NCBI GenBank assembly: GCA_016946835.1
Contig: JACVTC010000034.1
Span: 186,001-250,000 of the forward strand
DNA length: 64,000 bases
Direction of reading: 5' to 3'
From: Neocallimastix lanati (nom. inval.)
Lineage: Eukaryota; Neocallimastigomycota; Neocallimastigomycetes; Neocallimastigales; Neocallimastigaceae
Translations under genes and position numbers: made by a program
Notes under the pieces: generated by a model
Told to the model about the DNA's origin: nothing
Database searches by the model: none
Seen by the model: the letters and a program-made list of their open reading frames with translations, nothing else
In this document: positions 21,901 through 59,016 of the stretch, piece by piece
Layout: each line of letters begins with the position of its first letter
Numbering within the stretch: the first letter of the stretch is position 1

Positions 21901-24900
21901 TTTCTTCTTCATTCTCTTTTTCTTCTTCTTCATTTTCCTCATCATTTTCTTCTTCTTCTTCCTCATTCTCTTCTTCTTCTTCCTCATTTTCTTCTTCTTC
22001 ATTTTCTTCTTCTTCTTCAACAGTTTCTTCTTCTTCTTCTTCAACAGCTTCTTCTTCTTCATTTTCTTCTTCTTCTTCAACAGTTTCTTCTTCTTCATTT
22101 TCTACTTCTTCTTCTTCATTTTCTTCTTCTTCTTCTTCATTTTCTTCTTCTTCTTCCTCTTCATTCTCTTCTTCTTCTTCATTCTCTTCATTTTCTTCTT
22201 CTTCTTCTTCATTTTCTTCTTCATCATTTTCTTCTTCATTTTCTTCTTCATTGTCTTCCTCATTTTCTTCTTCATCATTTTCTTCCTCATTCTCTTCTTC
22301 TTCTTCCTTTTCATTCTCTTCTTCTTCTTCTTCTTCATTTTCTTCTTCATTTTCTTCTTCTTCTTCTTCTTCTTCATTCTCTTCTTCTTCCTCATTTTCT
22401 TCCTCATCATTTTCTTCTTCATTTTCTTCTTCTTCTTCCTTTTCATTCTCTTCTTCTTCTTCTTCTTCATTTTCTTCTTCATCATTTTCTTCTTCTTCTT
22501 CCTCATTCTCTTCTTCTACTTCCTCATTTTCTTCTTCTTCTTCCTCATTCTCTTCTTCTACTTCCTCATTTTCTTCTTCTTCTTCCTCATTCTCTTTTTC
22601 TACCTCTTCATTCTCTTCTTCTTCTTCTTCTTCTTCATCATTCTCTTCTTCTTCTTTTTCTTCATTTTCTTCTTCATCATTCTCTTCTTCTTCTTCTTCA
22701 TTTTCTTCTTCATCATTCTCTTCTTCTTCTTCATTTTCTTCTTCATTCACTTCTTCCTCATTTTCTTCTTCCTCTTCATTTTCTTCCTCATTCTCTTCTT
22801 CTTCTTCTTCTTCATTTTCTTCTTCATTTTCTTCTTCATCATTTTCTTCTTCTTCTTCTTTTTCTTCTTCTTCTTCAACAGTTTCTTCTTCTTCTTCTTC
22901 AACAGCTTCTTCTTCTTCATTTTCTACTTCTTCTTCTTTATTTTCTTCTTCTTCTTCCTCTTCATTCTCTTCTTCTTCTTCATTCTCTTCTTCTTCTTCA
23001 TTCTCTTCAATTTCTTCTTCTTCTTCTTCATTTTCTTCTTCCTCATTTTCTTCTTCTTCTTCTTCTTCTTCCTCATTTTCTTCCTCATCATTTTCTTCCT
23101 CTTCTTCTTCTTCTTCATTTTCTTCCTCTTCTTCTTCTTCTTCATTTTCTTCCTCTTCTTTTTTTTCTTCTTCATTTTCTTCTTCTTCTTCCTCTTCATT
23201 CTCTTCTTCTTCTTCATTCTCTTCTTCTTCTTCATTCTCTTCAATTTCTTCTTTTTCTTCTTCATTTTCTTCTTCTTCTTCTTCATTTTCTTCTTCCTCA
23301 TTTTCTTCTTCTTCTTCTTCATTTTCTTCTTCCTCATTTTCTTCTTCTTCTTCTTCATTTTCTTCTTCCTCATTTTCTTCTTCTTCTTTCTCATTTTCTT
23401 CCTCATCATTTTCTTCCTCTTCTTCTTCTTCTTCTTCATTTTCTTCTTCCTCATTTTCTTCTTCTTCTTCTTCATTTTCTTCTTCCTCATTTTCTTCTTC
23501 TTCTTCTTCATTTTCTTCTTCCTCATTTTCTTCTTCTTCTTTCTCATTTTCTTCCTCATCATTTTCTTCCTCTTCTTCTTCTTCTTCTTCATTTTCTTCC
23601 TCTTCATTTTCTACTTCTTCTTCCTCTTCATTTTCTACTTCTTCTTCCTCTTCATTTTCTACTTCTTCTTCCTCTTCATTTTCTACTTCTTCTTCCTCTT
23701 CATTTTCTTCTTCTTCATTTTCTTCTTCATTCTCTTCTTCTTCTTCTTCATTCTCTTCTTCTTCTTCTTCTTCATTCTCTTCTTCTTCTTCTTCTTCTTC
23801 CTCTTCATTCTCTTGTTCTTCTTCCTCTTCATTTTCTTCTTCTTCTTCTTTTTCTTCCTCATCATTTTCTTCTTCATTTTCTTCTTCTTCTTCCTTTTCA
23901 TTCTCTTCTTCTTCTTCTTCTTCATTTTCTTCTTCATTTTCTTTTTCATTGTCTTCCTCATTTTCTTCTTCATCATTTTCTTCCTCATTCTCTTCTTCTT
24001 CTTTTTCATTTTCTTCTTCTTCATTTTCTTCTTCTTCATTTTCTTCTTCCTCATTTTCTTCTTCTTCTTCTTCTTCATCATTTTCTTCTTCTTCATTTTC
24101 TTCTTCCTCATTCTCTTCTTCTTCTTCTTCTTCCTCTTCATTTTCTTCCTCATTTTCTTCTTCCTCATTTTCTTCTTCCTTATTCTCTTCTTCTTCTTCT
24201 TCTTCCTCTTCATTTTCTTCCTCATTTTCTTCTTCCTCATTTTCTTCTTCTTCTTCTTCTTCCTCATTTTCTTCTTCTTCATTTTCTTCTTCATTCTCTT
24301 CTTCTTCTTCTTCATTCTCTTCTTCTTCTTCTTCTTCTTCTTCATTCTCTTCTTCTTCTTCTTCTTCTTCCTCTTCATTCTCTTGTTCTTCTTCCTCTTC
24401 ATTTTCTTCTTCTTCTTCTTTTTCTTCCTCATCATTTTCTTCTTCATTTTCTTCTTCTTCTTCCTTTTCATTCTCTTCTTCTTCTTCTTCTTCATTTTCT
24501 TCTTCATTTTCTTTTTCATTGTCTTCCTCATTTTCTTCTTCATCATTTTCTTCCTCATTCTCTTCTTCTTCTTTTTCATTTTCTTCTTCTTCATTTTCTT
24601 CTTCTTCATTTTCTTCTTCCTCATTTTCTTCTTCTTCTTCTTCTTCATCATTTTCTTCTTCTTCATTTTCTTCTTCCTCATTCTCTTCTTCTTCTTCTTC
24701 TTCCTCTTCATTTTCTTCCTCATTTTCTTCTTCCTCATTTTCTTCTTCCTTATTCTCTTCTTCTTCTTCTTCTTCCTCTTCATTTTCTTCCTCATTTTCT
24801 TCTTCCTCATTTTCTTCTTCTTCTTCTTCTTCCTCATTTTCTTCTTCTTCTTCTTCTTCATTTTCTTCTTCTTCTTCTTCTTCTTCATTTTCTTCTTCTT

Positions 24901-27113
24901 CTTCATTTTCTTCTTCTTCTTCATTCTCTTCTTCTTCTTCTTCATTTTCTTCTTCTTCATTTTCTTCTTCTTCCTCATTTACTTCTTCCTCATTCTCTTC
25001 TTCTTCTTCTTCTTCCTCTTCATTTTCTTCCTCATTTTCTTCTTCCTCATTTTCTTCTTCTTCTTCCTCTTCATTCTCTTTTTCTTCATTTTCTTCTTCT
25101 TCTTTATTCACTTCTTCATCATTTTCTTCTTCTTCTTCTTCTTCTTCATTTTCTACTTCTTCTTTCTCATTTTCTTCTTCTTCTTCATTTTCTTCTTCTT
25201 CTTCATTTTCTTCTTCCTCATTTTCTTCTTCTTCTTCTTCTTCATTTTCTTCTTCATCATTTTCTTCTTCATCATTTTCTTCTTCTTCATTTTCTTGTTC
25301 TTCATTTTCTTCTTCCTCATTTTCTTCTTCTTCTTCTTCATTCTCTTCTTCTTCTTCTTCATTTTCTTCTTCTTCTTCCTCATTTTCTTCTTCTTCTTCA
25401 TTCTCTTCTTCTTCTTCAACAGCTTCTTCTTCTTCATTTTCTTCTTCTTCTTCTTCTTCCTCATTTTCTTCTTCTTCATTTTCTTCTTCCTCATTCTCTT
25501 CTTCTTCTTCTTCTTCCTCTTCATTTTCTTCCTCATTTTCTTCTTCCTCATTTTCTTCTTCCTTATTCTCTTCTTCTTCTTCTTCTTCCTCTTCATTTTC
25601 TTCCTCATTTTCTTCTTCCTCATTTTCTTCTTCTTCTTCTTCTTCCTCATTTTCTTCTTCTTCTTCTTCTTCATTTTCTTCTTCTTCTTCTTCTTCTTCA
25701 TTTTCTTCTTCTTCTTCATTTTCTTCTTCTTCTTCATTCTCTTCTTCTTCTTCTTCATTTTCTTCTTCTTCATTTTCTTCTTCTTCCTCATTTACTTCTT
25801 CCTCATTCTCTTCTTCTTCTTCTTCTTCCTCTTCATTTTCTTCCTCATTTTCTTCTTCCTCATTTTCTTCTTCTTCTTCCTCTTCATTCTCTTTTTCTTC
25901 ATTTTCTTCTTCTTCTTTATTCACTTCTTCATCATTTTCTTCTTCTTCTTCTTCTTCTTCATTTTCTACTTCTTCTTTCTCATTTTCTTCTTCTTCTTCA
26001 TTTTCTTCTTCTTCTTCATTTTCTTCTTCCTCATTTTCTTCTTCTTCTTCTTCTTCATTTTCTTCTTCATCATTTTCTTCTTCATCATTTTCTTCTTCCT
26101 CATTTTCTTCTTCCTCATTTTCTTCTTCCTCATTCTCTTCTTCTTCTTCTTCTTCCTCTTCATTTTCTTCCTCATTTTCTTCTTCCTCATTTTCTTCATT
26201 TTCTTCTTCATTTTCTTCTTCTTCTTCATTCTCCTCTTCTTCTTCTTCTTCTTCATTCTCTTCTTCTTCCTCTTCATTCTCTTCTTCTTCTTCTTCTTCT
26301 TCCTCTTCATTCTCTTCTTCTTCCTCATTCTCTTCTTCTTCTTCTTCATTTTCTTCTTCTTCTTCCTCTTCATTCTCTTCTTCTTCTTCTTCTTCCTCAT
26401 TTTCTTCTTCTTCTTCCTCATTTAGTTCTTCCTCATTCTCTTCTTCTTGTTCTTCTTCCTCTTCATTTTCTTCCTCATTTTCTTCTTCTTCTTCTTCTTC
26501 TTCATTCTTTTCTTCCTCATTTTCTTCTTCTTCTTCCTCTTCATTCTCTTCTTCTTCTTCTTCTTCTTCTTCTTCATTCTTTTCTTCCTCATTTTCTTCT
26601 TCTTCTTCCTCTTCATTCTCTTCTTCTTCTTCTTCTTCTTCTTCATTTTCTTCTTCTTCCTCATTTTCTTCCTCATCATTTTCTTCTTCATTTTCTTCTT
26701 CTTCATCTTCTTCATTTTCTTCTTCTTCTTCCTCTTCATTCTCTTCTTCTTCATTTTCTTCTTCCTCATTTTCTTCTTCTTCTTCATTCTCTTCTTCTTC
26801 ATTCTCTTCTTCTTCTTCTTCTTCTTCTTCATTTTCTTCTTCCTCATTTTCTTCCTCATCATTTTCTTCTTCTTCTTCTTCTTCTTCATTTTCTTCTTCT
26901 TCATTTTCTTCTTCCTCATTTTCTTCTTCCTCATTTTCTACTTCCTCATTCTCTTCTTCTTCTTCTTCTTCCTCTTCATTTTCTTCCTCATTTTCTTCTT
27001 CCTCATTTTCTTCTTCCTCATTTTCTTCATTTTCTTCTTCATTTTCTTCTTCTTCTTCATTCTCCTCTTCTTCTTCTTCTTCTTCATTCTCTTCTTCTTC
27101 CTCTTCATTCTCT

Positions 27114-27145
<32 letters not shown>

Positions 27146-30100
27146 CTCATTCTCTTCTTCTTCTTCATTCTCTTCTTCCTCATTTTCTTCTTCTTCTTCT
27201 TCTTCTTCATTCTCTTCTTCCTCATTTTCTTCTTCTTCTTCTTCTTCTTCATTCTTTTCTTCCTCATTTTCTTCTTCTTCTTCCTCTTCATTCTCTTCTT
27301 CTTCTTCTTCTTCTTCTTCTTCATTCTTTTCTTCCTCATTTTCTTCTTCTTCTTCCTCTTCATTCTCTTCTTCTTCTTCTTCTTCTTCTTCATTTTCTTC
27401 TTCTTCCTCATTTTCTTCCTCATCATTTTCTTCTTCATTTTCTTCTTCTTCATCTTCTTCATTTTCTTCTTCTTCTTCATTTTCTTCTTCTTCTTCATTT
27501 TCTTCTTCATTTTCTTCTTCATTCTCTTCTTCTTCCTCATTCTCTTGTTCTTCTTCCTCTTCATTTTCTTCTTCTTCTTCATTCTCTTCTTCTTCTTCTT
27601 CATTTTCTTCTTCTTCTTCTTCTTCTTCTTCATTTTCTTCTTTTTCTTCTTCTTTTTCATTTTCTTCTTCATTTTCTTCTTCTTCTTCTTCTTCCTCATT
27701 CTCTTCTTCTTCCTCATTCTCTTCTTCTTCTTCATTCTCCTCTTCTTCTTCTTCTTCTTCTTCATTTTCTTCTTCTTCTTCTTCTTCATTTTCTTCTTCT
27801 TCTTCCTCTTCATTCTCTTCTTCTTCTTCTTCTTCCTCTTCATTTTCTTCTTCTTCTTCTTCTTCTTCATTCTCTTCTTCTTCTTCTTCTTCTTCCTCTT
27901 CATTCTCTTCTTCTTCCTCATTCTCTTCTTCTTCTTCTTCTTCCTCTTCATTCTCTTCTTCTTCTTCTTCTTCCTCTTCATTTTCTTCTTCTTCTTCTTC
28001 TTCTTCATTCTCTTCTTCTTCTTCTTCTTCTTCCTCTTCATTCTCTTCTTCTTCCTCATTCTCTTCTTCTTCTTCTTCTTCCTCTTCATTCTCTTCTTCT
28101 TCCTCATTCTCTTCTTCTTCTTCCTCTTCATTTTCTTCTTCTTCTTCTTTTTCTTCTTCTTCTTCATTTTCTTCTTCATTTTCTTCTTCTTCTTCTTCTT
28201 CTTCATTTTCTTCTTCATTTTCTTCTTCTTCTTCTTCTTCATTCTCTTCTTCCTCATTTTCTTCTTCTTCTTCTTCATTTTCTTCTTCTTCTTCTTCTTT
28301 ATTTTCTTCTTCTTCCTCTTCATTCTCTTCTTCTTCTTCTTCTTCCTCTTCATTTTCTTTCTCATTTTCATTCTCTTCTTCTTCTTCATTCTCTTCTTCT
28401 TCTTCTTCTTCCTCTTCATTTTCTTCTTCTTCTTTTTCTTCTTCTTCTTCATTTTCTTCTTCTTCTTCTTTTTCTTCTTCTTCTTCATTTTCTTCTTCAT
28501 TTTCTTCTTCTTCTTCTTCTTCTTCATTCTCTTCTTCCTCATTTTCTTCTTCTTCTTCCTCTTCATTCTCTTGTTCTTCTTCCTCTTCATTTTCTTCTTC
28601 TTCTTCTTTTTCTTCTTCTTCTTCATTTTCTTCTTCATTTTCTTCTTCATTCTCTTCTTCTTCTTCTTCATTCTCTTCTTCTTCATTTTCTTCTTCTTCT
28701 TCTTCTTTATTTTCTTCTTCTTCCTCTTCATTCTCTTCTTCTTCTTCTTCTTCCTCTTCATTTTCTTTCTCATTTTCTTCTTCCTCATTTTCTTCTTCCT
28801 TATTCTCTTCTTCTTCTTCTTCTTCCTCTTCATTTTCTTCTTCTTCATTTTCTTCTTCTTCTTCTTTTTCTTCTTCTTCTTCATTTTCTTCTTCTTCTTC
28901 TTTTTCTTCTTCTTCTTCATTTTCTTCTTCATTTTCTTCTTCTTCTTCTTCTTCTTCATTCTCTTCTTCCTCATTTTCTTCTTCTTCTTCCTCTTCATTC
29001 TCTTGTTCTTCTTCCTCTTCATTTTCTTCTTCTTCTTCTTCTTCTTCATTCTCTTCTTCTTCTTCCTCTTCATTCTCTTCTTCTTCCTCATTCTCTTCTT
29101 CTTCTTCTTCTTCATTTTCTTCTTCTTCTTCCTCTTCATTCTCGTCTTCTTCCTCATTCTCTTCTTCTTCCTCATTTTCTTCCTCATCATTTTCTTCTTC
29201 TTCTTCTTCTTCTTCTTCTTCTTCATTTTCTTCTTCATTTTCTTCTTCCTCATTCTCTTCTTCTTCTTCATTCTCCTCTTCTTCTTCTTCATCATTCTCT
29301 TCTTCTTCCTCATTTTCTTCCTCATCATTTTCTTCTTCATTTTCTTCTTCTTCTTCCTTTTCATTCTCTTCTTCTTCTTCTTCTTCATTTTCTTCTTCTT
29401 CTTCTTCTTCTTCATTTTCTTCTTCATTTTCTTCTTCTTCTTCTTCTTCTTCATTCTCTTCTTCCTCATTTTCTTCTTCTTCTTCCTCTTCATTCTCTTG
29501 TTCTTCTTCCTCTTCATTTTCTTCTTCTTCTTCTTTTTCTTCTTCTTCTTCATTTTCTTCTTCATTTTCTTCTTCATTCTCTTCTTCTTCTTCTTCATTC
29601 TCTTCTTCTTCATTTTCTTCTTCTTCTTCTTCTTTATTCTCTTCTTCTTCTTCTTCATTCTCTTCTTCTTCTTCTTCTTCCTCTTCATTTTCTTCTTCTT
29701 CTTCTTCTTCTTCATTCTCTTCTTCTTCATTTTCTTCTTCTTCTTCTTTTTCTTCTTCTTCTTCATTTTCTTCTTCATTTTCTTCTTCTTCTTCTTCTTC
29801 TTCATTCTCTTCTTCTTCTTCCTCTTCATTCTCTTCTTCTTCCTCATTCTCTTCTTCTTCTTCTTCTTCATTTTCTTCTTCTTCTTCCTCTTCATTCTCG
29901 TCTTCTTCCTCATTCTCTTCTTCTTCCTCATTTTCTTCCTCATCATTTTCTTCTTCTTCTTCTTCTTCTTCTTCTTCTTCATTTTCTTCTTCATTTTCTT
30001 CTTCCTCATTCTCTTCTTCTTCTTCATTCTCCTCTTCTTCTTCTTCATCATTCTCTTCTTCTTCCTCATTTTCTTCCTCATCATTTTCTTCTTCATTTTC

Positions 30101-31206
30101 TTCTTCTTCTTCCTTTTCATTCTCTTCTTCTTCTTCTTCTTCATTTTCTTCTTCATTTTCTTCTTCTTCTTCTTCTTCTTCATTCTCTTCTTCTTCTTCC
30201 TCTTCATTCTCTTCTTCTTCTTCCTCTTCATTCTCGTCTTCTTCCTCATTCTCTTCTTCTTCCTCATTTTCTTCCTCATCATTTTCTTCTTCTTCTTCTT
30301 CTTCTTCATTTTCTTCTTCATTTTCTTCTTCTTCTTCTTTTTCTTCTTCTTCTTCATTTTCTTCTTCTTTTTCTTTTTCTTCTTCTTCTTCATTTTCTTC
30401 TTCATTTTCTTCTTCTTCTTCTTCTTCTTCATTCTCTTCTTCTTCTTCCTCTTCATTCTCTTCTTCTTCCTCATTCTCTTCTTCTTCTTCTTCCTCATTT
30501 TCTTCCTCATCATTTTCTTCTTCTTCTTCTTCTTCTTCTTCTTCTTCATTTTCTTCTTCATTTTCTTCTTCCTCATTCTCTTCTTCTTCTTCATTCTCCT
30601 CTTCTTCTTCTTCATCATTCTCTTCTTCTTCCTCATTTTCTTCCTCATCATTTTCTTCTTCATTTTCTTCTTCTTCTTCCTTTTCATTCTCTTCTTCTTC
30701 TTCTTCTTCATTTTCTTCTTCATTTTCTTCTTCTTCTTCTTCCTCTTCATTCTCTTCTTCTTCTTCCTCTTCATTCTCGTCTTCTTCCTCATTCTCTTCT
30801 TCTTCCTCATTTTCTTCCTCATCATTTTCTTCTTCTTCTTCTTCTTCTTCATTTTCTTCTTCATTTTCTTCTTCTTCTTCTTCTTCTTCATTCTCTTCTT
30901 CTTCTTCATTCTCCTCTTCTTCTTCTTCATTCTCTTCTTCTTCTTCTTCATTCTCTTCTTCTTCTTCTTCATTCTCTTCTTCTTCTTCTTCTTCTTCATT
31001 CTCTTCTTCTTCTTCTTCTTCTTCATTCTCTTCTTCTTCCTCATTTTCTTCCTCATCATTTTCTTCTTCATTTTCTTCTTCTTCTTCCTTTTCATTCTCT
31101 TCTTCTTCTTCTTCTTCATTTTCTTCATTTTCTTCTTCTTCTTCTTCAACAGCTTCTTCTTCTTCATTTTCTTCTTCCTCATTCTCTTCTTCATTTTCTT
31201 CTTCTT
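15929..31206 (-). CDS. Terminal exon of a giant Glu/Asn-rich, multi-hevein chitin-binding protein
   Basis: This minus-strand exon runs from an AG acceptor at 31207-31209 to the TAA at 15929-15931: two bases closing a split codon, then 5,091 sense codons. The frame at 31204 equals that of the C-terminal domains. The complementary serine-type frame stays in phase across the array and shows no codon that would put a stop in this frame. Order: about 4,480 residues of Glu/Asn repeat with occasional Asp, Lys, Val, Gln and five C-x2-C islands; a Ser/Thr-rich stalk of repeated SATVTDSQ (about 17340-17700), probably O-glycosylated; seven hevein domains to the last residue, Trp. There is no ATG at the exon's 5' end and no signal peptide, which fits an internal exon fed by the micro-exons upstream. 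By family it should bind chitin or GlcNAc at the cell wall or outside the cell. The exon call is strong; the junction is inferred. Confidence 0.85.
15932..17300 (-). other. Seven tandem hevein-type chitin-binding domains (ChtBD1)
   Basis: Each copy of about 42 residues follows the eight-cysteine hevein plan: CG-x4-G-x-C-x5-CCS-x2-G-[WY]-CG-x4-YC-x6-GCQS-x3-G-x-C. Aromatic residues sit at the sugar-binding positions (KYGWCG and the Tyr before C). Domains 2-4 are nearly identical and separated by acidic linkers carrying SEDDEES, pointing to recent duplication. Domain 3 has SKHGWCG instead of SKYGWCG. Domains 6 and 7 are more divergent. The last domain ends in CW and stop. Confidence 0.95.
17740..31206 (-). 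repeat. 13.5-kb GAA/AAT coding repeat (Glu/Asn array)
   Basis: On the plus strand this is an almost pure pyrimidine tract of TTC triplets broken by ATT or CTC about every 3-9 triplets; the coding strand is GAA-rich. Higher-order duplications are visible. The word TCTTGTTCTT with its surroundings recurs at 23811 and 24381 (570 bp, 190 codons). TCTTTATTCA recurs at 25101 and 25914 (813 bp, 271 codons). Frame is kept throughout, so the array has expanded in whole codons. Assembly collapse or expansion is possible in such sequence. Confidence 0.9.
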
Positions 31207-31361
31207 CTATTTTATCAATTAATTTTAATAAAATATTTATTATAAAAAAATATATTAATTATTCATAAATTTCTAATAAATAAATTTATATTTATTACTA
31301 ATAAAAAAATTATAAATATTTCAATAAAAAATTAAAATATAATAATATAATTTTATTTTAC

Positions 31362-34300
31362 CCTTTTCGCAATCATTTTCTTTGAATAAAATCATTTATT
31401 AATTAATGATACATTACAAATAATAATGGATATAATATCAACAATGAATAAATAAATTATTAATTAAATTAAAATATATATAAGTATATTTTTATTCATT
31501 TATATAATTGAAATATTTTTATTTTCGAATATATATTAATTAAAATATTTTGAAATATATTTAAAATTTTATTTAATAATTATTTTTCCATTAAATAATA
31601 ATATTTATAAATATTAATATTAAAGATATTAATAATTATTTTTAATGCTATTATTATTTTTTGTTTATTTATTTTAATTAAGCAATAATATTTATTTACC
31701 ATTAAAATAGTTTTCACATCCATTCCATTCTTTTATTATAAATAAATAAATAATTAATTAATTAATTAATTATAAAAAAGGAAACAAGTTAATATATTTT
31801 TAGAAAAGCTTCTTTGTAATATATTTAAAATATAAAAATACCATTCAATTATATTTAATATTTTTACCTTCTGTACAAACTATTATTTTTTAAAAAAAAA
31901 TATTTAATCATATAAATTATTTTATTATTATAAAATAATAGAGTTTTATTTTATATATTAATAGAATATATTTGTTAAAAACATCAATATTTTAATTATT
32001 TATTAAAGAATTTCAATATTATTATGTCTTAATATAAAATATTTAATTATTATTTTTATAATTTTAATTTATTATTATATTCATTCAATAAATAGCTTAC
32101 CTTTTCATTTTATTTTATTTATGTTTTTTATTATTATAATTATTATTATTTTTCAAGTTTATTAATATTAATTATAAAAATATATATTAATAACAAATAG
32201 TTTAATTATTTAAATTCTTATATTTTTATCCATTAAAATAAACTAAATATATATAAAGATAATTATATATTTCAATAATAAAATTATAATTTCAAAAAAA
32301 TATTTTATATCTAAATAATTAAATAAATATACATATTTTTTTTTAAATATTGATGATAAAAGAAAAAACTTTCATTAATGTAAAGAAATTTTTAAATTTT
32401 TTCTTTACATTAATGAATCTTATATAATTTTTAATTAATACATATTTGTATATTTTTTAACTTTATTACTAATTTTTACATTTTTATATTTTCATATTTT
32501 TTTCTTTAAATTTATATTATTATTATTATATTATTAGGTATTTTGGAATAGGAATTACTATTACTTTTATTATTATTTTTTTTTATTTTTGACGATTAAT
32601 CCTTAATTTTAATATATATTAATAATACTTACAAGTTTCGCAGTAATTTGGTTTTATTGTTATTCTGGAATTATTATCTGTTATATTTTATTCATTTAAG
32701 TTTTTTTTTTATTTTTATTGATTCAAAATTTAATATATATAAATGTTTTAATTTTTATATTTTATCAAATTAAACAATATATATAATATAATATATATAT
32801 ATTATATTTATTAACATAAAAAATACATTTATTTTTTGTAATAAAAATTATAAAAATTATAAAAATTTTAAATATTATTTTTTGGATTCATTTTATATTT
32901 ATCATACTATTATTTATTTATACCTTTATTAAATGATTTAAGACCTAAAAATTATTTGTTAAAATATATTTTAAAATTTGTAGATATAATGATAAATAAT
33001 ATTGATAATTTATAAATCATATAGAGAAGAAATTAAAATAAAATAAATGTTTAATAATTTTATCATATTATATCACATTATATTATATTATATTATCATA
33101 TTATTATGATTAATTTATTATTAAAATTTTATTTACCTTCTTCACAAGCTTATAATTTAAATTAGAAATGTAAAAATATTAAATTATAAAAAAAAATTAT
33201 ATATTTTTATTTTCGATACATATATGTTAAAATAAATTTTTTAAATAATTAAATTTTTTTTTTTAAATTATTTAATATTTTTAATCGAGTTGTATATTTT
33301 TTTATAAATTTTTAAAATATATATTTTTTTTATATGTTTCATTTAATTTAATAAAAAATTTTTATTAAAATAAAAAAAATTATTTTCTTATTGTTAATCC
33401 TTATAAATATAAAACTTTAAAAAGAATTTTTTTTTATTTTATTTTGTATATATATATATATATTTAATTACCAGATTTACAACCTATTCACATTTTAAAA
33501 GTGAATTTTTTTTAAAATATATAAAGAAATATTTATTAATTTAATATATAAAATTCTAATTGAATTTAATATAAATATTTTAATTAAAAAAATAAAAAAT
33601 TATTTATTATAATTACATGTTTGACAATTATTATCCGTTTCTATTAATGATAATTTATAAATTATAAAAAATAATAAAAATAAATAGTAAATTAATTAAA
33701 AAAATATTATTAATAAAATATTTTTAATGCTTAAAAATTATTTTTTTATATTTCTAATATTTTTATATGAAATCATTAATAATTATATATATATATAATA
33801 TATATATATATATTTATTTTAAAAAGAAAAAAAATTTATAGTAAAATTACTTACCACAAATATCTAAATAATTAAATATTTAAAAATTCAACAAAGTAGA
33901 AGCAAAAAAATAAATTTTTAATTTATAAATAATAATAATAATAATAATTATAATAATAATAATAATTATAATAATAATAATAATAATAATAAAATATTAT
34001 GATTATTTAATTATATGAATTATTTATGTAATATAAATTTGATATATTGATAAAAATATTATTTAAAATTTTAATTTTGATGAATTTATAATACTTTTAA
34101 ATAAATAAATATATATACATATATATATTATTTTTTTAATACTTACCAGAGCATTCTTTAAATAATATTTTAAGAATTATATTATATAATTTATGAAAAA
34201 AAAAATGTTCGTATCAATTTAAATATCAAAATTCAATAAATTTTAACATTTATAATATATAATTTAATATTATTTAATTTAATTAGTTTTTAAAATAATT

Positions 34301-35320
34301 ATTTAAATATATTATTCATATTAATTTTTTTATTTATTCATTTAAATATATTATTCATATTAATTTTTTTTTATTTAATAATTATTATTATTTAAAAACT
34401 TTAATTTTACTTACGATTAACACAATCATTATATCCTTTACATTAATATAAATATTAATTATTTTTAAAATATTGAATTAAGTTAGTAAAAAAAATAATT
34501 CTATTTTAATTTTTTATAGCTTTAATTAATATTATATATATATTTATTTATTTATAATAATATTATAATATACTTACCACTTTTGTTATCTTATAAGAAA
34601 AAATATTTTTTTTATAGATAAAATATTTAAAATATGAATTTATATATATTTAATTTTATTAATTTTGATAATTTTCTAATATTCAGTATTTACCTACTAT
34701 TAAAGTAAATTTAATTTATGATATAATATTAATTTTATAAAAATCAATTTTAAAGATTTGAATATTTGATTTATTTATATTTAATAACGTTTAAATTAAC
34801 ATTTCAATATGATAATTTATACTTACATCCTATTTATATTTATATTGTATTGTATTGAATAAATTTAAATATAAATATAATTAGTAAATGTATATTTTAT
34901 GAATTATTAATTATAATAAATTTATATAAATATATATATCTTTTATAATATATTAATATTTAAAGTTTTATGATATATTTTATTGACATTTTTTATTTGG
35001 GAATAATTAAAATTATCATAAAAATAAGTAAAAATTAAATATATATAAGATATTATTAAAATATTCTATAAACTTATAAAATAAATTTAACTTTATAATT
35101 ATCTTTACTTCTATTTAAATATACCATTTTATTTAAAAAAAAAATAAAATAAAATAATTTTATTTTAAATTATTTTATTTTTTTTAAAATAAATTAGATA
35201 TATTTTATGTACAATTTAATTTAAATATTATTAATATTTTTTAAGCACTTTTATTAAAAAAAAATTTTTTTATTATTAATTCATATAATTTCATTATTTC
35301 ATATTTACCATCCGTTCCAA
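31362..35320 (-). other. Micro-exon cluster A: Cys-bearing exons of 3-45 nt next to the giant exon
   Basis: Fourteen candidate exons on the minus strand, each after AG and before GT, given as lowest coordinate and length: 31362 (18), 31700 (30), 31868 (12), 32633 (45), 33137 (12), 33472 (12), 33617 (24), 33855 (9), 34147 (9), 34415 (21), 34578 (12), 34694 (3), 34827 (3), 35309 (12). Every length is a multiple of three and every intron splits a codon after base 1. Translation in that phase has no stop and puts one internal Cys codon in each of the ten exons from 31362 to 34415, for example WNGCENYFN, NYCET, NNCQT, YNDCVN. The last exon donates G, and G plus AA opens the Glu/Asn frame at 31206. 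One anomaly, a 2-nt site at 35109-35110, would break the frame if used. Splicing is inferred, not shown. Confidence 0.75.
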
Positions 35321-35464
35321 CTATTTATATAAAATAAATTTTTAAATAAAAATTAAAAATATATATTATTATTTAAAATATTTATTAAGATATAATTTAT
35401 AAATAAATTAATTATAATAAATTTAAATGCATTTATAATGTATTTACTATATATTTATACTTAC

Positions 35465-38400
35465 ATACTATTTATGAGTAACAATAAATAAAATATATAA
35501 ATTAATATATAATTTTTTTAAATTTTTTTTTAAAATGTATTTTAATTATTATAATTTAAATAATTTTATTAACAAAGTAATATATATTTATTTATACTTA
35601 CTGACTATTTTATACAGAATTATTAATTATATAATATTAAAATTTATTAAATATTTTAAATATATTTTTTAATACTCATATATAATTATTTAATATATTT
35701 TTAAATTTATATTTATATATATGCTCACGTTCTTTTCATTTGAAACAATTAGCAATATAAAATTAAAAATATAAAATTATCAAACATTAATTATATATAT
35801 TTATATATAAATATATGTTTATTAAATTAATTTTAATAATTTCAAAAATTTTTAATAATATCCAGGCATAAATTTATACATACCAACTATTTTATATGAA
35901 ATATTTTGTAGTATAAAATTAATAATAAATAAATATTTTGTTATTTACAATTACATCCAAAAAATTTTAATAATAAAAATTAAATATATATTTATACATA
36001 CCACCTATTTATATGAAATAATTTTGTAGTATAAAATTAATAATAATTAAATATTTAACATATTTATAATAAACATTAGTTATTTTCAATTAATTTCAAA
36101 AATATATAAAAATATAAATTTATACTTACTTTCTATTTATACAAAATAATTTGTAGTATAATATTAATAATATTTAAATATTTAAAATATTTATATTAAA
36201 TATATGTTTATTTACAATTTATTTTAATTTTCTTTTTTTTTTACAATATATTTAAATATATATTTAAACTTACTATCTATTTATATGAAATAATTTGTAG
36301 TATAATATTAATAATAATCAAATTATATAAATGATTTATAACAAATAGAGTTTATTAATAATTAATTTTATAATATTTTATATATATATTAAACTATATA
36401 TTTATACTTACTATCTATTTATATGAAATAATTTATAATATTAATTTATAATAATTAAATATTTTAAGGATTAAATACTTTAATGATTAATAATCTATAT
36501 ATTATTTTACAATTAATTTTAAAAAATTTTAATAATATATTTAAACATAAATTTATACTTACAGGCTATTTATGCAAAATATTTTGTATCATAATTTTTT
36601 AATAATCAAATATTTAGAATATAAATAATAAATAAATGCAATATACAATTAATTTCAAAATTTTTTAATAATATCTTTTAGGATAAATTTATACTTACGG
36701 CCTATTTATATAAAAGAATTTATAATACAAAATTTATAATAATCAAATATTTGAATGATTGATAATAAGTATATATTATTTACATATTAATTTTAATAAT
36801 ATTTAATAATAACTAAACATAAAATTCATATTTACCCCCTATTGATATGAAATAATTTGTATTTTAAAAATTACAATTATTTAATATTTATAATATTTAT
36901 AATAAATATATGTTATTTACAATTAATTTTTAAAAAATTTTATTAATACATTTAATTATATTATTTATACTTACTAACTATTTGTATGAAACAGTTTAAA
37001 AAATTTACAATAATTAAATTTTTGAATAATTGATAATAGATATTAATTATTTATAATTAGTTTTAAAAACTATTAATAAAATATTTAATTATATATTTAT
37101 ACTTACCGCCTATTTACATGTAATATTTTGCAGCATAAAATTAATAATAATCAAATATTTGAATGATTGAAAATAAATATATGTAATATATATTATACAA
37201 TTAATTCCAAAAAAAATTATTATATATTTAATTATATATTTACTTACACGCTGTTTATAATAAAATAATTTGTAGTATAGTATTAATAAAAACAAATATT
37301 GAAAATATTTTTGATAAATATATGTTATTTATTATAAATTTTTAATTTTTTAATATAATATTAAAGTATATTATTTATACTTACGGCCTATTTATATAAA
37401 AGAATTTATAATACAAAATTTATAATAATCAAATATTTGAATGATTGATAATAAGTATATATTATTTACATATTAATTTTAATAATATTTAATAATAACT
37501 AAACATAAAATTCATATTTACCCCCTATTGATATGAAATAATTTGTATTATAAAATTTACAATTATTCAATATTTAAAATATTTATAATAAATATATGTT
37601 GTCTAAAATTAGTTTTTAAAAAAATTTTAATGATACATTTAAATATATATTTATACTTACTGCCTATTTAGATAAAGTAATTTGTAGTTAAAATTTTATA
37701 ATTATTAAATATTAAAAATATTTATAATAAATATATGTTATTTTCAATTATTTTTAAAATTTTTTAATAACAATTAAACAAAAAATTAATCTTACCATCT
37801 TTTTATATGAAATAATTTGTAATATAATATTATTAATATTATTAAAATATTTGTTATTTACAATTTCAAATGTTATTTTTAATATAATTAATTATTTATT
37901 TATATTTACTGCCTATTTATTTATATAATTTATAGTAAAAAAAAAATTATAATAATTAATATATAAAAAAATTATTATAAATATATGATATTTAAAATTA
38001 ATTTCAAAAAATTTTAAATTTTTATAAATATTTTAAAGTATATTATTTATACTTTATAATCTAATTATATGAAACAATTTATATTATAAAATTTATAATA
38101 ATTAAATATTTGAACGATTGATAATAAATATTATTATAAAATTAATTTTAAAAAATTCTAATAATCCATTTAAATATATATTTAAAACCTACAGTCTATT
38201 TAGATAAAATAATTTGTAGTATAAATTGTATAATTATTAAATATTAAAAATATTTATAATAAATATATGTTAATACAATTAGTTTCAAAAATTTTTTAAA
38301 GTATACTTAATATATATATATTTAAACTTACTTCCTATTTATATAAAACAATTTGTAGTATAAATTGTATAATTATTAAATATTAAAAATATTTATAATA

Positions 38401-41400
38401 AATATATGTTAATACAATTAGTTTCAAAAAAATTTTATAATATACTTATATATATATTTATACTTACTAACTATTATATGAAATAATTTATAATAAAAAT
38501 TTGATAATTAAATATTTTAATTTAATTAATAATAAATATATGTTAATACAATTAGTTTCAAAAATTTTTTAAAGTATACTTAATATATGTATTTAAACTT
38601 ACGGCCTATTTATATAAAACAATTTGTAGTATAAATTGTATAATTATTAAATATTAAAAATATTTATAATAAATATATGTTAATACAATTAGTTTTAAAA
38701 TTTTTTATAATATACTTATATATATATTTATACTTATACTTACTAGCTATTATATGAAATAATTTATAATAAAAATTTGATAATAATTAAATATTTTAAT
38801 TTAATTGATAATAAATATATGTTTATTGACAATAGCATTTCAAAAATTTTTAATATCATTTTAGTATAAACTTATACTTACCTACTATTTATTTAAATAT
38901 TTTTTTATAAAAATTATAATAATTACATATTTAAAATATTTATAATAAATATAGGTTATTTATTATTATTTTCAAAAAAAAAATATTAATAATAAATTTA
39001 ATTATATATTTATACTTACGGCCTATTTATATAATTAAATTTTTGAATAAATATTATAATAATTAAATATTTTAAAAAATTTATTATAAATATTTTTTAT
39101 TTATCATTAATTTCAATAAATTATTTATATTAAATTAGAATATATTTATACTTACTATCTATTAATATGAAATAATTTTTAGATAATTAAATATTGAAGA
39201 TATGTATAATAAATATATGTTATTTATGATTATATTTGACAATTTTTAATAATAAAGTTAAATAAACATTTATACTTACTAATAGCTATTTAAATTTAAA
39301 TAGTATAATTAATAATAATATAAAATATATAATAATTAAATATTTAAATGATTGATAAAAAATTTAGGTTATTTACAATTAATTTCAAAAAAGTACTAAT
39401 AATAAATTTAATTATATATTTATACTTACGCCCTATTTATATGAAATAATTTGTAATAGAATATTAATAATAATAATCAAATTATATAAATGATTTTTAA
39501 TGAAATGATTTATAATATAAATTTTATAATAGTTAAATATTTAAATGATTAATTATAAATATATATAATTTCAAAAAAAATTTTATTAATCTACTTAAAT
39601 AAATATACTTACATGCTATTTATATATTATTATTAATATAAAATTTATAATTAAATGTTTGAATTATTGATAATAAATATATGTTATTAAAAATTCATTT
39701 AAAAAATTTTTTAATAATAAAATTAAATATATATTTGTACTTACGAGCTATTTACATTAAACCAGTTATATTATAAAATTATTAATAATTAAATATTCGA
39801 ATGGTTGATAAATGAGTATAATTTACAAATTAATTTCAAAAAAAACTAATAATAAATTTAATTTTATATTTATACTTACTCCCTGTTTATATAAAACAAT
39901 TTATAATGCAAAATTTATAATAATCGAATATATATGAATGATTAATAATAAATATATGTCATTTACTTTTATTTTATAATAATTAAATATTTTAAGGATT
40001 AAATACTTTAATGATTAATAATCTATATATTATTTTACAATTAATTTTAAAAAATTTTAATAATATATTTAAGCATAAATTTATACTTACATCCTATTTA
40101 TATAAAAGAATTTATAAAACAAAATTTATAATAATCAAATATTTGAATGATTGATAATAAGTATATGTTATTTACATATTAATTTCAATAATATTTAATA
40201 ATAACTAAACATAAATTCATATTTACCCCCTACTGATATGAAATAATTTGTATTATAAAATTTACAATTATTCAATATTTAAAATATTCATAATAAATAT
40301 ATGTTGTCTAAAATTAGTTTTTAAAAAAATTTTAATGATACATTTAAATATATATTTATACTTACTGCCTATTTAGATAAAGTAATTTGTAGTTAAAATT
40401 TAATATATTTATAATAAATATATGTTGTCTAAAATTAGTTTTTAAAAAAATTTTAATAATACATTTAAATTTATATTTATACTTACCGTCTATTTAAATA
40501 AAATGATTTGGAATATAAAATATATGTTAATTAATTATATGAATAATTGAAAATAGATATATGTTATTTACAAATTATTCAAAAAATTTTAATAATATCT
40601 AAATATATATTTATACTTACGGACTATTTATATGGAATAATTTGTATTATAAAATTTATTATAATCGAATATTTGCATGATTGATAATTAATATATGCTA
40701 TCTATAAATCAGTTTTCTTCAAAAAAAATTTTAATGATCTATTTAAATATATATTCATACTTACCGTCTATTTAAATAAAATGATTTGTAATATAAAATA
40801 TATATTAATTAATTATATGAATAATTGAAAATAGTTATATGTTATTTACAAATTATTCAAAAAATTTTAATAATATCTAAATGTATATTTATACTTACAG
40901 GCTATTTAAATAAAATGATTTGTAATATAAAATATATATTAATTAATTATATGAATAATTGAAAATAGTTATATGTTATTTACAAATTATTCAAAAAATT
41001 TTAATAATATCTAAATGTATATTTATACTTACAGGCTATTTATATGAAATAATTTGTGTTATAAAATTTATAATAATTAAATATTTGGATGATTGATAAT
41101 AATTAATAAATAAATATTTGATTGATTGATAGTAAGTACATATTTTTTACAATTAATTTCAAAAATTATTAATAATAACTAAACATAAATTTATACTTAC
41201 TCCCTATTTATATGAAATAATTTGTGGTATATAATTAATAATATTTAAATATTTATAATATTTATAATAAATGTATGGTTTTTTCAAATTAATTTCAATA
41301 ATATTTAATTTAATAACTTAACATAAATTGATATTTACAGGCTATTTATATAAAATAATTTGTAGTATAAATTTTATAATATTTAAATATTTAAAAATAT

Positions 41401-41876
41401 TTATAATAAATTTATGTTATTTACAATAACGTTCAAAAAAATTTTATAGTATATTTAAATATATATTTATACTTACGATCTATTTATATAAAATATTTTT
41501 TTATATAAAATTTTATAATAATTATTTATTTAAAGTATTTATAATAAGTATTATTCAACAAATATTTTTAGTTTTTTTTTTATTATTATTATTTTTTAAT
41601 AATATATTTAAATATATAATTATACTTACGAACTATTTAAATAAATGAATTTAAACAAATAAATTTTAAAATACATTTAATATATTTAATATATAATTAA
41701 TCTGAATGTATTAAAAATGTATTGAACATTATTTAATAATACTTATATATATCTACCTTCTAAATAAGCAAATAAAATAGAAAATATATATAGTTAGCCC
41801 AAATATAATAAATACATTTAATATAATAATTTAAATAATGATTAAATATTTTTAATTATGTTGTTTTACTTACCGA
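35465..41876 (-). other. Micro-exon cluster B: array of 46 exons, 45 of them exactly 3 nt
   Basis: Minus-strand triplets between (T/C/A)AG and GTAAGT-like donors, as lowest coordinate and triplet: 41874 TCG, 41757 AAG, 41630 TTC, 41477 ATC, 41339 CCT, 41201 GGA, 41033 CCT, 40899 CCT, 40765 ACG, 40621 TCC, 40487 ACG, 40366 GCA, 40227 GGG, 40091 GAT, 39880 GGA, 39745 CTC, 39613 CAT, 39430 GGC, 39280 CTATTA, 39156 ATA, 39020 GCC, 38882 TAG, 38744 CTA, 38603 GCC, 38468 TTA, 38332 GAA, 38193 ACT, 37910 GCA, 37796 ATG, 37661 GCA, 37522 GGG, 37385 GCC, 37248 CGT, 37107 GCG, 36975 TTA, 36836 GGG, 36699 GCC, 36563 CCT, 36412 ATA, 36274 ATA, 36130 AAA, 36002 GTG, 35884 TTG, 35729 AAC, 35602 TCA, 35465 TAT. 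A decayed unit sits near 38057 (donor GT lost). Flanks are conserved while the triplet varies. Confidence 0.75.
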
Positions 41877-42162
41877 CTACATATATGTAAAATAGTTTAT
41901 AATATAAAATTATAAATTTTATGATATATATAATAACCATTTTTAATATTAAATAATAAATTTTATGTTTTTTAAAGTGTTTAAAAAATAATAATATTAA
42001 ATGTAATTTTTATTAAATTATTAAATATATTTTATAATAAAAGCATTATATATAGTGTTAATAAAAAATATAATTAAAAATGATAAAATTTATAATATTA
42101 TTATATTAAATATAATATTATTAATAATAATAAATAAAATTTTATAATTAAGAAAGACTTAC

Positions 42163-43121
42163 AAAAACTCTTGCAGGCTTTATTTTTATTATTATTTTAC
42201 AATATTTTTCAAATATTTTATAAAATTACAAATAAATTATTTAAAAAGAAATGTTAAATATTAATAAGTAGATTATTATTATAATAAAAAAGGCAACTTT
42301 AACATTTTCTAACAATAATTTAATTATAATAATATATTTTATTATATCAATATATTATAAATGATATTTACACTCGGTACATGTATCCACCCCTATTCAT
42401 AAATATTGTATTAATAATATTTACATATATATATTTAAATATATAGTAATATTGTAAAAAAAGGCAATAACTTTAATATATATAATTATTTTAAATTTAT
42501 TATATACTAAATGTATATATATATATATATATATATTTATCCAATTTACCAGCAGAACAAACTAAAGAAATATTATAAATATATTAGTTTTTTTTTTTTT
42601 AGTATTTCAGTATAAAATTTATAAACTCAAAAATTAAATACAAATATAATTTATTAAACCTAATATTTCATATTTCTTTGTAGTTAATTTTTTAAATGAT
42701 TTATTTTTAACCATTTAAAAAATTAGCTATATCTATAACAAAAATAAAAAATATCTTTATAATTTTTATCTCTAAACTACAAAGTAAAAAAAAAAAAAAT
42801 CACTGATATATTTTTTTAAAATATATTATTTTTTCATACCTTCCTTAAAATCTAAATTATTGTATTTTTATTTAAATAAAAAAAGGAATAAAATTAAAAA
42901 ATATATTGAAATAATAAATATATTAACATTAAATATTTATTATTTATGCATAAAATAATATCGATATGTTATTTAATGATAAATTTTAGTTATTTAAGTC
43001 ATATTCATATTTTTAAAATAATAATAATAATAATAAATAATAATTTATTAAATTATTTTTATATTTAAAATAAATAAAAAAATGAAATTTGAAATTTTAA
43101 TTATAGGTAATTTACTCTGGG
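42163..43121 (-). other. Micro-exon cluster C: 5' exons of 6-21 nt
   Basis: Five candidate exons in the same phase: 43116 (6 nt, CCCAGA), 42840 (12), 42550 (12), 42372 (21) and 42163 (15). Joined in order they read without a stop, roughly QNFKE, VCSA, GVDTCTE, SCKSF, and hand on T to the first triplet exon. Three of the five carry one Cys. Donors are GTAAAT, GTATGA, GTAAAT, GTAAAT and GTAAGT. No initiator ATG or signal-peptide exon could be assigned upstream, so this is not the true 5' end of the gene. Confidence 0.6.
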
Positions 43122-44850
43122 CTTTTACAAAATTTATTAAAAATTCTTGAAATAAAACAATATATAGTATTCTATATTTTTATTAAGAAATTATAAATTA
43201 AATTTAAATAATTTAGAAAATTATGTAAAACATTATATCTTTAACAACTAAATTATGCATTAATATATATATATTACTTAAAATATTTCAGTAGCATTTT
43301 ATTATAATATTAAAAGTATTAAAAGAAACGTTGAATAAAAATGAAAAAAAAAGAATATATTTCCATTTTATATATATTTATATATTTTTTTTAAGGTTAA
43401 AATTTAATTGAAATATAATTCATAATAAAGTATTATAGTGAATTACTGATGCATTAATTAAATAATAAATTTTAATTTTTTTTTTTTTTTTTTTTTTTTT
43501 TTGAGAAAAAATTATATATGAGTTTCGATTAATTAATTTTGAATTAATTAAAAAGATTTTCAATTAATCATAAAAATATGTGGCAATGTCAATTTTATAT
43601 ATTTATATTTCATCATTTGTACAAAAAAAAAAAAAAACGTTAACTCCATATTAATTAAAAAACTTTATTTTTCTCTTTTTAAGATTTAAATTAATAAATC
43701 GACATTTTCACTTCCAAATTTTTTAATTTTAAAACTAATATATATATATATTTAATAATTTCAAAATCAAATTATTTTTAATAATTTTGTTTTAATTAAA
43801 ATAAAAAAAAAATTTAAATATTAATTTAAATATATTTAATTTATTCTAATAATAATTAATAATAATGAGTGATATACAACTCAAAAGTTCGATGTACTTT
43901 TGTTGAGATTTATTTATTAAATTTATTATTTTATTATTTATTTATTTATTTATTTAATTTTATTTAAAAACTACATATATTTAAAAAGGCTATTTAACAA
44001 CTTTCTTATACTTTTAATTACAAACTAACTTAACATTTCTAAACACAATATAATTTTTAATCTTAACACAACACTTCTCTTAATTCAGAGAAATGCTTTA
44101 TTTTTATGTTATTTAGTTATAATTAACTATTTAATTAATTGCTCTTGTTATTAGAACAAACTATTAATAATTATTATTTAAGGAAATGTTTAATAGCTAT
44201 ATAAATAGAAAATATAAAATAATAAGAATATAATTAAAACATTGATTTATGCTATAAAATTTATTATTAATTATAAATATAATTAATATATAGAAATCAA
44301 GCCACATATTGAAATTGTTGTAAAATCATTAGATTTAAATTTGATTTATGACATTAATTTATGTTTGAATAATAAAAACTATTTTATATTAATTAAGGTT
44401 TGAATATTTCATTTTATATCATGAGTTAATAACCATGTTAAAATTTACCACTAAACATTTAATTTTATCCTTATATGGATAATAATTTATATAATAATAA
44501 GATAATAATGATTAATAATAATATATTATTTTATTATTTAATTAATTTTATCTTTGTATGGAATAATATTTTGTGATTTAAAAAAATTTTTTTTTAATTT
44601 TATTAATAAAAATTTATTTATTTATTTAATTAAAAAGTTTATTATTAAATGATACTATAAAGAAAAATAGTAAAGCAAAGCATATAGTTGTAAGTGACAA
44701 TTTAAAACTAATAATTATAAGTAAATAAATAACTAATAAAATTTAATTATAAAGATTATTATTATTCTTTTTTTAAACAAAAATATTATGAATTTTAATT
44801 TTTTTTTTTTTTTTTTTTTTTTGTTTGTTTGTTTGTTTGTTTCCAATGTT

Positions 44851-46615: not shown

Positions 46616-48588
46616 GATTAAGAGTCTCATTTGACTCGATAAGTTTGTATAGAAATTTAGAATACTTAGTTAATTAGGAAATTTAGTAATTTAGTAATTT
46701 AATAACTTAGTAACTTATTAATTTAGTAATTTAGTAATTTAGCATTTAGCAATTTAGTAATTTAGTAATTTAGTAATTTAGCAACATAGTATAATTAGGA
46801 TATTTAAGATTAACAACACTTAAATATACATATAAGTAAATAAGAAACACATCAGAATTAGGAAATTAGTATTTGAATGTTTCTTATATAATTTAGTAAT
46901 TAGTATTTAGAAATAGTAATTAGTAATATATTAATACATTTATAAAATGACCGGAACAACTAGAATAGTTCTTAATAGGATGGAATATGTCCTAACAGAA
47001 GATAACTACGATGAATGGTATGAAGACTTTATCCTCGAACTCCAAGGCGTTGGATTAAGTGAATACGTAGAAAAAAACATAGATGATATAGTAAAAGAAG
47101 TAGAGAAGAAATATACAACCAAAGATAAAAAGGGAAATGATATCTTATCTGAAGAAGGTGAAAACAAAATTAAGGAACATAAAATAAACAACTTCAAAGT
47201 TATGAGTTTTTTAAGAAAATCTGTTGATGCAAAAATAAAATTCTTTATTAGAAGTAAGGAAGAAGAAAAAAATTCAGCATACTTAATATTAAAGGTACTC
47301 AAGAAGAAATACCACGAAGAAGAATTCAATGAAATATCAAAACTCTACAGAAGATTAGAAAATATGAGGGCCGGAAGCGATAAAGAAACTTTAGAATACA
47401 TCGAAGAATTTTTAGAAATCACGCAAAAGTTAGGAAAATTAAATAATAAACTTAGCAATAGGGAAAAATTAAACCACTTGTTTAAAGGACTACCAGAGAA
47501 ACAATTAAATTTCTTAGAAATAAGATACAGTATCTCAGAAGACGTCAATGAAATATTAGAAGATATGAAGAAGTAAATTAGAAATAGTAGAACCTTTATC
47601 CTAGGAAAAAATAAAGAAAAAGAAAAAGAAATATCACAAATATCTAAAGGAAAAAATAAGAATAAAAATAAAGACAAAGGCAATAATTACGAAAGTTGTG
47701 ATGAAGACGATATCTGCGAGAAATTCAATAATAAAAGAAGTATAAATAATAAGAAAAAGCGCTGTTATTTATGTGATAGTGAAAACCATTTAGTTTACAA
47801 CTGCCCCTTTAACCCTAAGAATCCTCATAACAATATTAAACACATAGCAGAACAATTCCAAAAATTAAATATTTCAGTTGATGAGATAAATGACATTGAA
47901 TTATGTTACGACAGTGATTCGGATAGCGATAGTAGTATAGTTAAGATAAAAGAAATAAATTTAATTGAAACTGAAAATAGTATAATGGAAACAAATTTAA
48001 TTGAACCTGAAAATAGTATCAAAGAAATAAATTTATATGAAATAAGCACCACTTCAGAAGAAGAAAAAGAAGATAATAATGATAATCAATATTTAATATT
48101 TAAAACTATAGATGATACAAGAAAATTCAATTATGACACAAATCATTGTAATAAAAATAATAACACACCGAATAAAACAGAAAACACAAATATTTTTCAA
48201 AAAGAAAATAATATTAATTATGATTTAAATAATTATTTTATTAATGGAATTTATGATAGCAATGAATATAATAACAGTAACTATAAGAATTTAGGTATAA
48301 ATAGTAACATACGCAATAATGAAATAGCAAGTATGAATAATAATATACATAATAATGAAATAGCAAGTATGAATAAAAATAATATTTCGAATAATTACCA
48401 AAATTATGAAAATGAAAATCCTGTTACGACAGATAAATATATAATTGAATCATTTCAAGATAAAATAAATAAAACAAATCGTAAATTGAACAAATTATTG
48501 AAATGTTTGAGTGAAATTGAAGAAAAGAACAATAACATCCAGAAAATTATTAAAGAATATTTACAAATTATGAGATTTGATAATATTT
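46411..48588 (+). mobile_element. LTR retrotransposon, gag-only family, 3'-truncated copy
   Basis: It shares its LTR, primer site, leader and gag with the complete element at 58218-61437. It starts at TGTTAGAAAATTAG (46411). Its 5' LTR is only 205 bp because about 158 bp of the middle are missing. Similarity stops at 48587, inside the C-terminal part of gag, so the rest of the internal region and the 3' LTR are absent. Many differences from the intact copy are C-to-T or G-to-A. Confidence 0.88.
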
Positions 48589-58815: not shown

Positions 58816-59016
58816 ATAGTATAATTAGGATATTTAAGATTAACAATACTTAAATATACACATAAGTAAATAAGAAACACATCAGAATTAGGAAATTAGT
58901 ATTTGAATGTTTCTTATACAATTTAGTAATTAGTATTTAGAAATAGTAATTAGCAATTTATAATTAATAAACAAATTCATTAAATAATATTAAAAATATA
59001 TTATTACATTTAAGAA

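Follow-up and report, generated by a model that had tools for sequence, protein, structure and literature searches.

The micro-exon genes (MEGs) of schistosomes are built from numerous short exons whose lengths are mostly divisible by three, encode a signal peptide, and are hard to annotate by machine. A report on these genes gives the exons as mostly 15 bp (the smallest being 6 bp according to its main text but 3 bp according to its abstract), the introns as 100 to almost 5000 bp, and the longest protein as 189 residues (PMC10526429). In the aphid bicycle genes, which according to the accessible sections of PMC9168663 are under strong positive selection and have ∼17 exons on average (>100 microexons in megacycle), nearly every internal exon begins at the second position of a codon. 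Splicing also extends to exons no longer than a single codon, as described for a 3-bp exon of homothorax from Drosophila and a 1-nt exon of CYP621A from Fusarium. Intron definition with removal of introns one after another has been proposed for the 1-nt exon of APC11 from Arabidopsis (PMC4674806), and it was likewise proposed that the introns around plant microexons are recognized singly and removed successively (PMC8831610). In this report, we describe a gene from the gut fungus Neocallimastix lanati in which dozens of consecutive exons are one codon long. The gene, labeled C268, lies in a window of 64,000 nt (positions 186,001 to 250,000 of contig JACVTC010000034.1, assembly GCA_016946835.1), and all positions given below are those of the window.

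Joining of Single-Codon Exons in a Public Sequence

The gene is read on the minus strand from 43297 down to 15929 and was modeled as 67 short exons followed by a 15.3-kb last exon. Exactly 3 nt was found for 46 of the short exons and 6 nt for 2 of them, and the 65 exons that follow the first two measure 3–45 nt each. The longest run of exons of ≤6 nt has 46 members (41876–35465), and the longest run of exactly 3 nt has 27. All 67 introns are GT-AG, with lengths of 104–753 nt and a median of 135 nt in the final model; 66 are in phase 1 and the first is in phase 2. Exon length is divisible by three for 65 of the 67, the exceptions being the first two (20 and 56 nt). The G+C content of the 3-nt exons is 51%, compared with 8.7% in the introns and ∼9% in the surrounding DNA. 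The first-pass annotation of the window had listed about 65 candidate exons, 45 of them of 3 nt, all with lengths in multiples of three and all flanked by phase 1 introns. The minus-strand array that it described is real, and its counts and its two general rules are amended by the values above. Its statement that the ordered join enters the Glu/Asn exon in register without a stop holds, and the whole join now yields 5266 amino acids up to the first stop codon.

The splicing of the array was compared with a public protein sequence. Using an alignment of five joined micro-exon heads, from this gene and four paralogues, a search that scored the 8000 candidates sharing the most words returned a protein of 248 amino acids, designated P0001, on a 1132-nt JGI contig. 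Over 158 residues compared with the first join, P0001 was the same at 153. Against the corrected model, which had been fitted to P0001 at two places (the gene start and the unit at 40229), residues 1–182 are identical at 180 positions, with no gaps across the whole array. The match covers ∼12 kb of genomic DNA, and 51 of the 52 residues touched by exons of ≤6 nt are identical. Since P0001 contains the residues of the array, the array is apparently joined in full by the cell. The join of single-codon exons is shown in this one public sequence, and we place the probability that the exon/intron structure and splicing are as read, and that this is a working spliced gene, at about 0.95. The earlier proposal that about 143 residues are built almost one codon per exon is borne out by this match, and P0001, one sequence, contradicts transcripts in which the array is skipped or retained, the outcomes that had been named as refuting it.

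A protein database search with P0001 as the query returned P0001 alone, and a further search added a second sequence, P0002, which is the Neocallimastix californiae record LY90DRAFT_232629. P0002 is identical to the gene at 45 of 45 residues over the gene start. The 20 residues that follow residue 45 are the translation of the intron after exon 6, and therefore the public N. californiae model errs where the array begins. The match also places the genome of the window in this species or very near it.

For the gene start, a 6-nt exon CCCAGA at 43121, preceded by an exon of 2 nt, had been considered. P0001 shows the end of a 56-nt exon instead (43171–43116), to which CCCAGA belongs, and the start is at 43297. 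A start ATG with a donor resembling that of exon 1 is also present in the paralogues C104b, C445, C643a, and C235. The unit at 40229 had been taken as 3 nt; P0001 reads HGIGGW, and therefore this unit is spliced as six bases, TAGGGG.

P0001 might be an intronless retrocopy in another strain and not a transcript, given that its contig is known by its length (1132 nt) and its protein alone. When the genome was searched at the protein level, no intronless copy came up; of the three matches with E up to 1, two fell on exon 2 and the third on the 45-nt exon. A retrocopy would in any case derive from an mRNA spliced exactly so, and the splicing claim would stand. We regard a retrocopy as improbable.

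The cores could also be recursive-splicing points, with the triplets mostly omitted or randomly included and the array serving the stepwise removal of one long intron. With three bases separating its two sites, the core AG-NNN-GTAAGT looks like a ratchet point, and sequential removal is likely in any case. To our knowledge, zero-nucleotide ratchet points leave no exon sequence in the mRNA, whereas the array codons are retained in P0001. The last codons of the array also encode a motif that is partly common to distant paralogues (VGEIFG, VGEIYG, and VELIFG). Recursive splicing of this kind is thus given little credence, and the array is read as a row of coding exons.

Exon Map

The features of the final model are as follows.

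43278–43297, minus strand: exon 1 (20 nt), with the start codon, MLLKYF plus 2 nt; residues 9–15 of P0001.
43116–43171, minus strand: exon 2 (56 nt), remainder of the signal peptide, ILYIVLFQEFLINFVKA-QN; from P0001 and P0002.
42163–42851, minus strand: exons 3–6 (12, 12, 21, and 15 nt), FKEVCSAGVDTCTESCKSF, with the first Cys motif; from P0001, P0002, and the five-paralogue alignment.
35465–41876, minus strand: single-codon array of 46 consecutive exons (44 of 3 nt and 2 of 6 nt), with introns of 111–280 nt, median 134 nt; P0001 matches without gaps.
40227–40232, minus strand: 6-nt exon TAGGGG, where the CAG acceptor is used and not the TAG three bases further; HGIGGW in P0001.
39280–39285, minus strand: 6-nt exon CTATTA, two codons.
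38040–38065, minus strand: degenerate unit, its 5′ splice site damaged, omitted in P0001 with the frame kept; the model without this unit matches P0001 ungapped.
35309–35320, minus strand: exon 53, TTGGAACGGATG, with the FGTDG motif; FGTDG/FGEDG counterparts in C104b and C643a.
34694–34829, minus strand: exons 54 and 55, two more 3-nt exons (GAT and TAG).
31362–34589, minus strand: exons 56–67 (9–45 nt), second Cys domain, NKSGYNDCVNQCSDIC...CCKSACEE...CETFC...WNGC...NDCEK.
15929–31206, minus strand: last exon through the stop codon, with the Glu/Asn stalk, Ser/Thr region, and hevein-type domains.
17723–31206, minus strand: Glu/Asn stalk, 93% Glu plus Asn over residues 175–4690.
15929–17287, minus strand: seven C-terminal chitin-recognition domains (hevein, CBM18-type; PF00187), the first beginning near 17287.

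Detection of the Array

From 43.3 down to 31.2 kb of the minus strand, the repeating core is TAG-NNN-GTAAGTATAAAT. With ≤2 mismatches, TAGNNNGTAAGTATAAAT has 43 occurrences over the whole window, of which 40 fall on the minus strand at 34815–41635; 1.10 matches are expected by chance, and the maximum over 100 shuffles was 5. In the genome searched (762 contigs, 199.0 Mb), a longer form of the pattern gave 169 matches, compared with 0 for the reversed pattern, and a second form gave 153 compared with 2. An Rfam scan of 31–44 kb returned no family at gathering scores.

A splice-site search that ignored the reading frame, with weights hand-set after the array had been inspected, gave 51 of 52 internal exons divisible by three in the studied gene and 43 of 43 at a stricter first setting. 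This frame-blind search missed the first six and the last eight exons of the final model, which were placed by hand and by P0001, and accepted one false 2-nt exon. For 207 out of 245 GTAAGT cases (near-identical copies counted), the distance to the nearest upstream AG was divisible by three. Among 224 cores from 12 stretches, with near-identical copies again counted, the 3 nt enclosed by AG and GT are far more variable than their flanks; this contrast is partly built in, because the cores were picked out of 301 by ≥17 of 22 consensus letters.

Paralogues in the Genome

The pattern of the 3′-end of exon 2 was found with ≤1 mismatch at 7 places (C268, C104, C235, C445, C643, C112, and C741) and with three mismatches at five more, C135 accounting for three; the control with the pattern reversed gave 0. 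Full heads with the array were modeled for five genes (C268 and the paralogues C104b, C445, C643a, and C235), and there are at least four further genes with such arrays in this genome. When the five joined heads were aligned, 25 columns were found to be invariant, nine of which are Cys. The frame-blind exons divisible by three were 64/64 for C445, 27/27 for C571, 32/33 for C643a, 24/26 for C104b, 20/22 for each of C104a, C351, and C431, 11/11 for C90, 6/6 for C70, 18/19 for C235, 12/12 for C135, and 10/11 for C112. These loci are not all independent, because C445 and C571 (99.8% DNA identity) and C104a, C351, and C431 (99.5–99.98%) are near-identical copies. C268, C445, and C643a have a mutual DNA likeness of ∼67% at the locus, and C268 and C104b are close in DNA.

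The array of C445 contains 60 exons of 3 nt, mostly ATG-ATT-TTG, which are read as DDF repeats; its triple units recur with a period of 404 bp in 15.9 copies with 88% matches. C104a, C351, and C431 look truncated, since exon 2 was not found by the pattern search in C104a and its near-copies and, among 46 listed matches, none of the longest nine pairs this group closely with C268 upstream of the middle of the array.

Two side observations concern these loci. One unit of C104a, C351, and C431 (L021, L022, and L026–L029) contains ∼10 consecutive G in place of the GGG found in the window. Three related starts are found within ∼17 kb on C135, and at L044 (G000:C135:1578301-1583300) a hydrophobic leader and nine consecutive exons of 3 or 6 nt seem to enter a different protein body.

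Divergence of Splice Sites and Triplets

Units were kept for comparison with C268 when the triplets aligned and the flanks were <15% different, which left 19/19 units from C104a, 13/21 from the 3′ part of C104b, and 8/21 from its 5′ part. In these three sets, the splice sites changed at 2/171, 0/117, and 1/72 positions and the flanking introns by 4.3, 4.4, and 5.6%, respectively (p = 0.046, 0.014, and 0.17).

These values bear on the possibility that the array is a diverged minisatellite in one long intron, whose AG-NNN-GT cores are incidental and skipped in the transcript. Tandem Repeats Finder (TRF) does call the array tandem repeats, with a period of 134 and 67% matches, and the introns of separate units are alike. 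The splice sites are kept while the introns change, although with p values of only 0.046, 0.014, and 0.17, and the three positions inside the 224 cores vary far more than their neighbors, a contrast that is partly built in. The difference in G+C content between triplets and introns and, above all, the presence of the array residues in P0001 (51 of 52 identical) make a minisatellite very improbable.

The triplet changes in the kept units numbered 8/57 for C104a, 12/39 for the 3′ part of C104b, and 15/24 for its 5′ part; without the flank filter, the 3′ part gave 25/57. The expected change was recomputed by base, because G/C sites of the introns diverge by 15–17% compared with ∼4% at A/T sites, about fourfold faster. 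After this control, the C104b triplets were found to carry 12 changes against 2.9 expected in the 3′ part (p = 6e-5) and 15 against 2.5 in the 5′ part (p = 7e-8), a divergence roughly fivefold that of introns matched for composition. In the larger exons of C104b, 34 changes were counted in the 3′ part, where 15 are expected, and 7 in the 5′ part, where 5.4 are expected. No excess was found in the larger exons for C104a (16 changes against 17.9 expected), and the candidate result that exons outpace introns in both paralogue pairs was dropped for C104a after the control for base composition.

The triplet differences between C268 and C104b could be due to mutation and not selection, either through fast GC-rich sites or through short conversions that swap codons. 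The fourfold faster change at G/C sites favors this explanation and accounts for the C104a effect, but in the well-aligned units C104b still has 27 changes against 5.4 expected after the base control. No conversion tract between units was visible in the 8 units with 2–3 changes, where the near 20 nt differ by 6.5% and the next 60 nt by 7.6%; a tract of a few bases would escape. We rate mutation as the cause below an even chance. As judged from these alignments, diversifying selection in the intact pair C268/C104b is likely but not proved.

The Encoded Protein

The order of the parts in the protein is signal peptide, Cys motif, linker, second Cys domain, stalk, Ser/Thr region, and chitin-recognition domains. 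The last of these match Chitin_bind_1 (PF00187) in 7 stretches with an E of 8e-50 and 167 bits, the cutoff being 27.8. The chitin-binding end would tether the protein to the fungal wall, with the acidic stalk carrying the fast-changing head outward, as an adhesin or a recognition surface in the rumen. We lean slightly toward this arrangement, in which the wall-anchored stalk would display a variable head. The plus strand opposite the stalk, at 17619–31268, is open for >4500 codons in two frames, and lists of open reading frames mislead here.

Assessment

Several points weigh against the reading of C268 as a working gene of this kind. P0001 is one sequence and hence one isoform, and that its contig is a cDNA we infer from its length of 1132 nt. 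The frame-blind search was poorer on C643b (11/13) and gave no internal exon in C31 or C741. In the alignment of five heads, four rest on models in which the frame was enforced and in-frame stops were forbidden, though Cys was not enforced, and one row of the alignment was shortened. Freedom from stops is weak evidence: shuffling the order of 45 triplets gave a mean of 0.99 stops, and none in 32% of cases, where the first-pass annotation had expected about three at random. The stop counts at the other loci come from models forbidding in-frame stops and are not evidence of stop-freedom. The hydrophobic N-terminus (MLLKYFKILYIVLFQEFLINFVKA in P0001) was read as a signal peptide by eye. A Pfam scan of the five heads found no family up to E 1, and a search of the heads against the PDB gave two weak matches to diguanylate cyclases (E 0.035 and 0.094) that were taken as chance. 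Modeling the structure of P0001 by itself gave a poor result, with a mean predicted local distance difference test (pLDDT) score of 50. Finally, the triplets show no excess of change against C104a (8 compared with 5.8 expected, p = 0.23).

Proposed Splicing and Evolution

The short introns (median 134–135 nt) would be recognized singly, by intron definition, and, as two spliceosomes cannot fit on a 3-nt exon, neighboring introns would be excised one after another. The linker between the two Cys motifs would lengthen or shorten by tandem duplication of a unit of one intron and one codon. The gain, loss, or skipping of a unit is frame-safe, because each unit adds 3 nt in phase 1; the degenerate unit near 38.05 kb, absent in P0001, is an example of such an omission. 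It is tentatively suggested, as a possibility that we hold to be rather doubtful, that the arrays are a device for diversification, with units open to duplication, loss, skipping, or mutation, and with a linker that varies codon by codon between paralogues and possibly between transcripts. If this were true, the linker of a surface-displayed head could vary in length and sequence without damage to the frame.

Other Features of the Window

A glycosyl hydrolase family 43 gene is found on the plus strand at 6846–7853. The G+C content of kilobase 7001–8000 is 38%, compared with 12–14% in its neighbors, and this gene may be transferred. MULE transposase-like frames and a FLYWCH domain are located at 1269–1883, 49834–50778, 52905–53774, and 53678–54325, the first two just below the cutoff. 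Frames that are gag-like, of Copia/Ty5-type elements, are located at 46935–47576 and 59014–60978. Heptamer arrays of TTTATTA/TAATAAA occupy 3897–4806, 8376–8687, and 9013–9342 with ∼129, 45, and 47 copies.

Comparison with Known Systems

A literature search on Neocallimastix microexons, rows of microexons, and 3-nt or single-codon exons, with ranked results and with bioRxiv and most subscription journals outside its coverage, found no such rows, in agreement with the earlier statement that they are not known to have been described. Micro-exon genes as such are known; what is distinctive here is one codon per exon, tens of times consecutively, with proposed growth by duplication, in a fungus. 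The gene tests the lower limit of exon size, since 46 consecutive exons of one or two codons are correctly joined at least once. In this gene family, the length of a protein can be changed one residue at a time through duplication of an intron and a codon, a frame-safe route that is apparently undescribed in the papers found. The failure of the public N. californiae model exactly at the start of the array shows why such genes go unseen. Gut fungi are culturable, and the order and fidelity of splicing are thus testable.

In APC11, homothorax, and CYP621A, the available parts of the sources describe one such exon per gene, whereas dozens occur consecutively here. The bicycle genes share the phase, 66 of the 67 introns of C268 being in phase 1, but they belong to insects, and rows of single-codon exons were not found in the accessible sections of PMC9168663. 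With respect to the selection reported for those genes, the triplets of C268 show an excess of change against C104b and none against C104a, and the larger exons show one only in the 3′ part of C104b. Fungal CBM18 (hevein-type) proteins are resembled in the seven PF00187 stretches, which are fused here to a giant Glu/Asn stalk and to a micro-exon head without a Pfam match. The parallel with the schistosome MEGs drawn in the first-pass annotation is one of architecture and not of membership. Short exons in multiples of three are common to both (65 of the 67 before the last exon in C268). MEGs occur in flatworms, whereas the sole named match here is from the fungus N. californiae, and C268 differs in that 46 of its exons are exactly one codon long and that its product is a chitin-binding fungal protein of 5266 amino acids.

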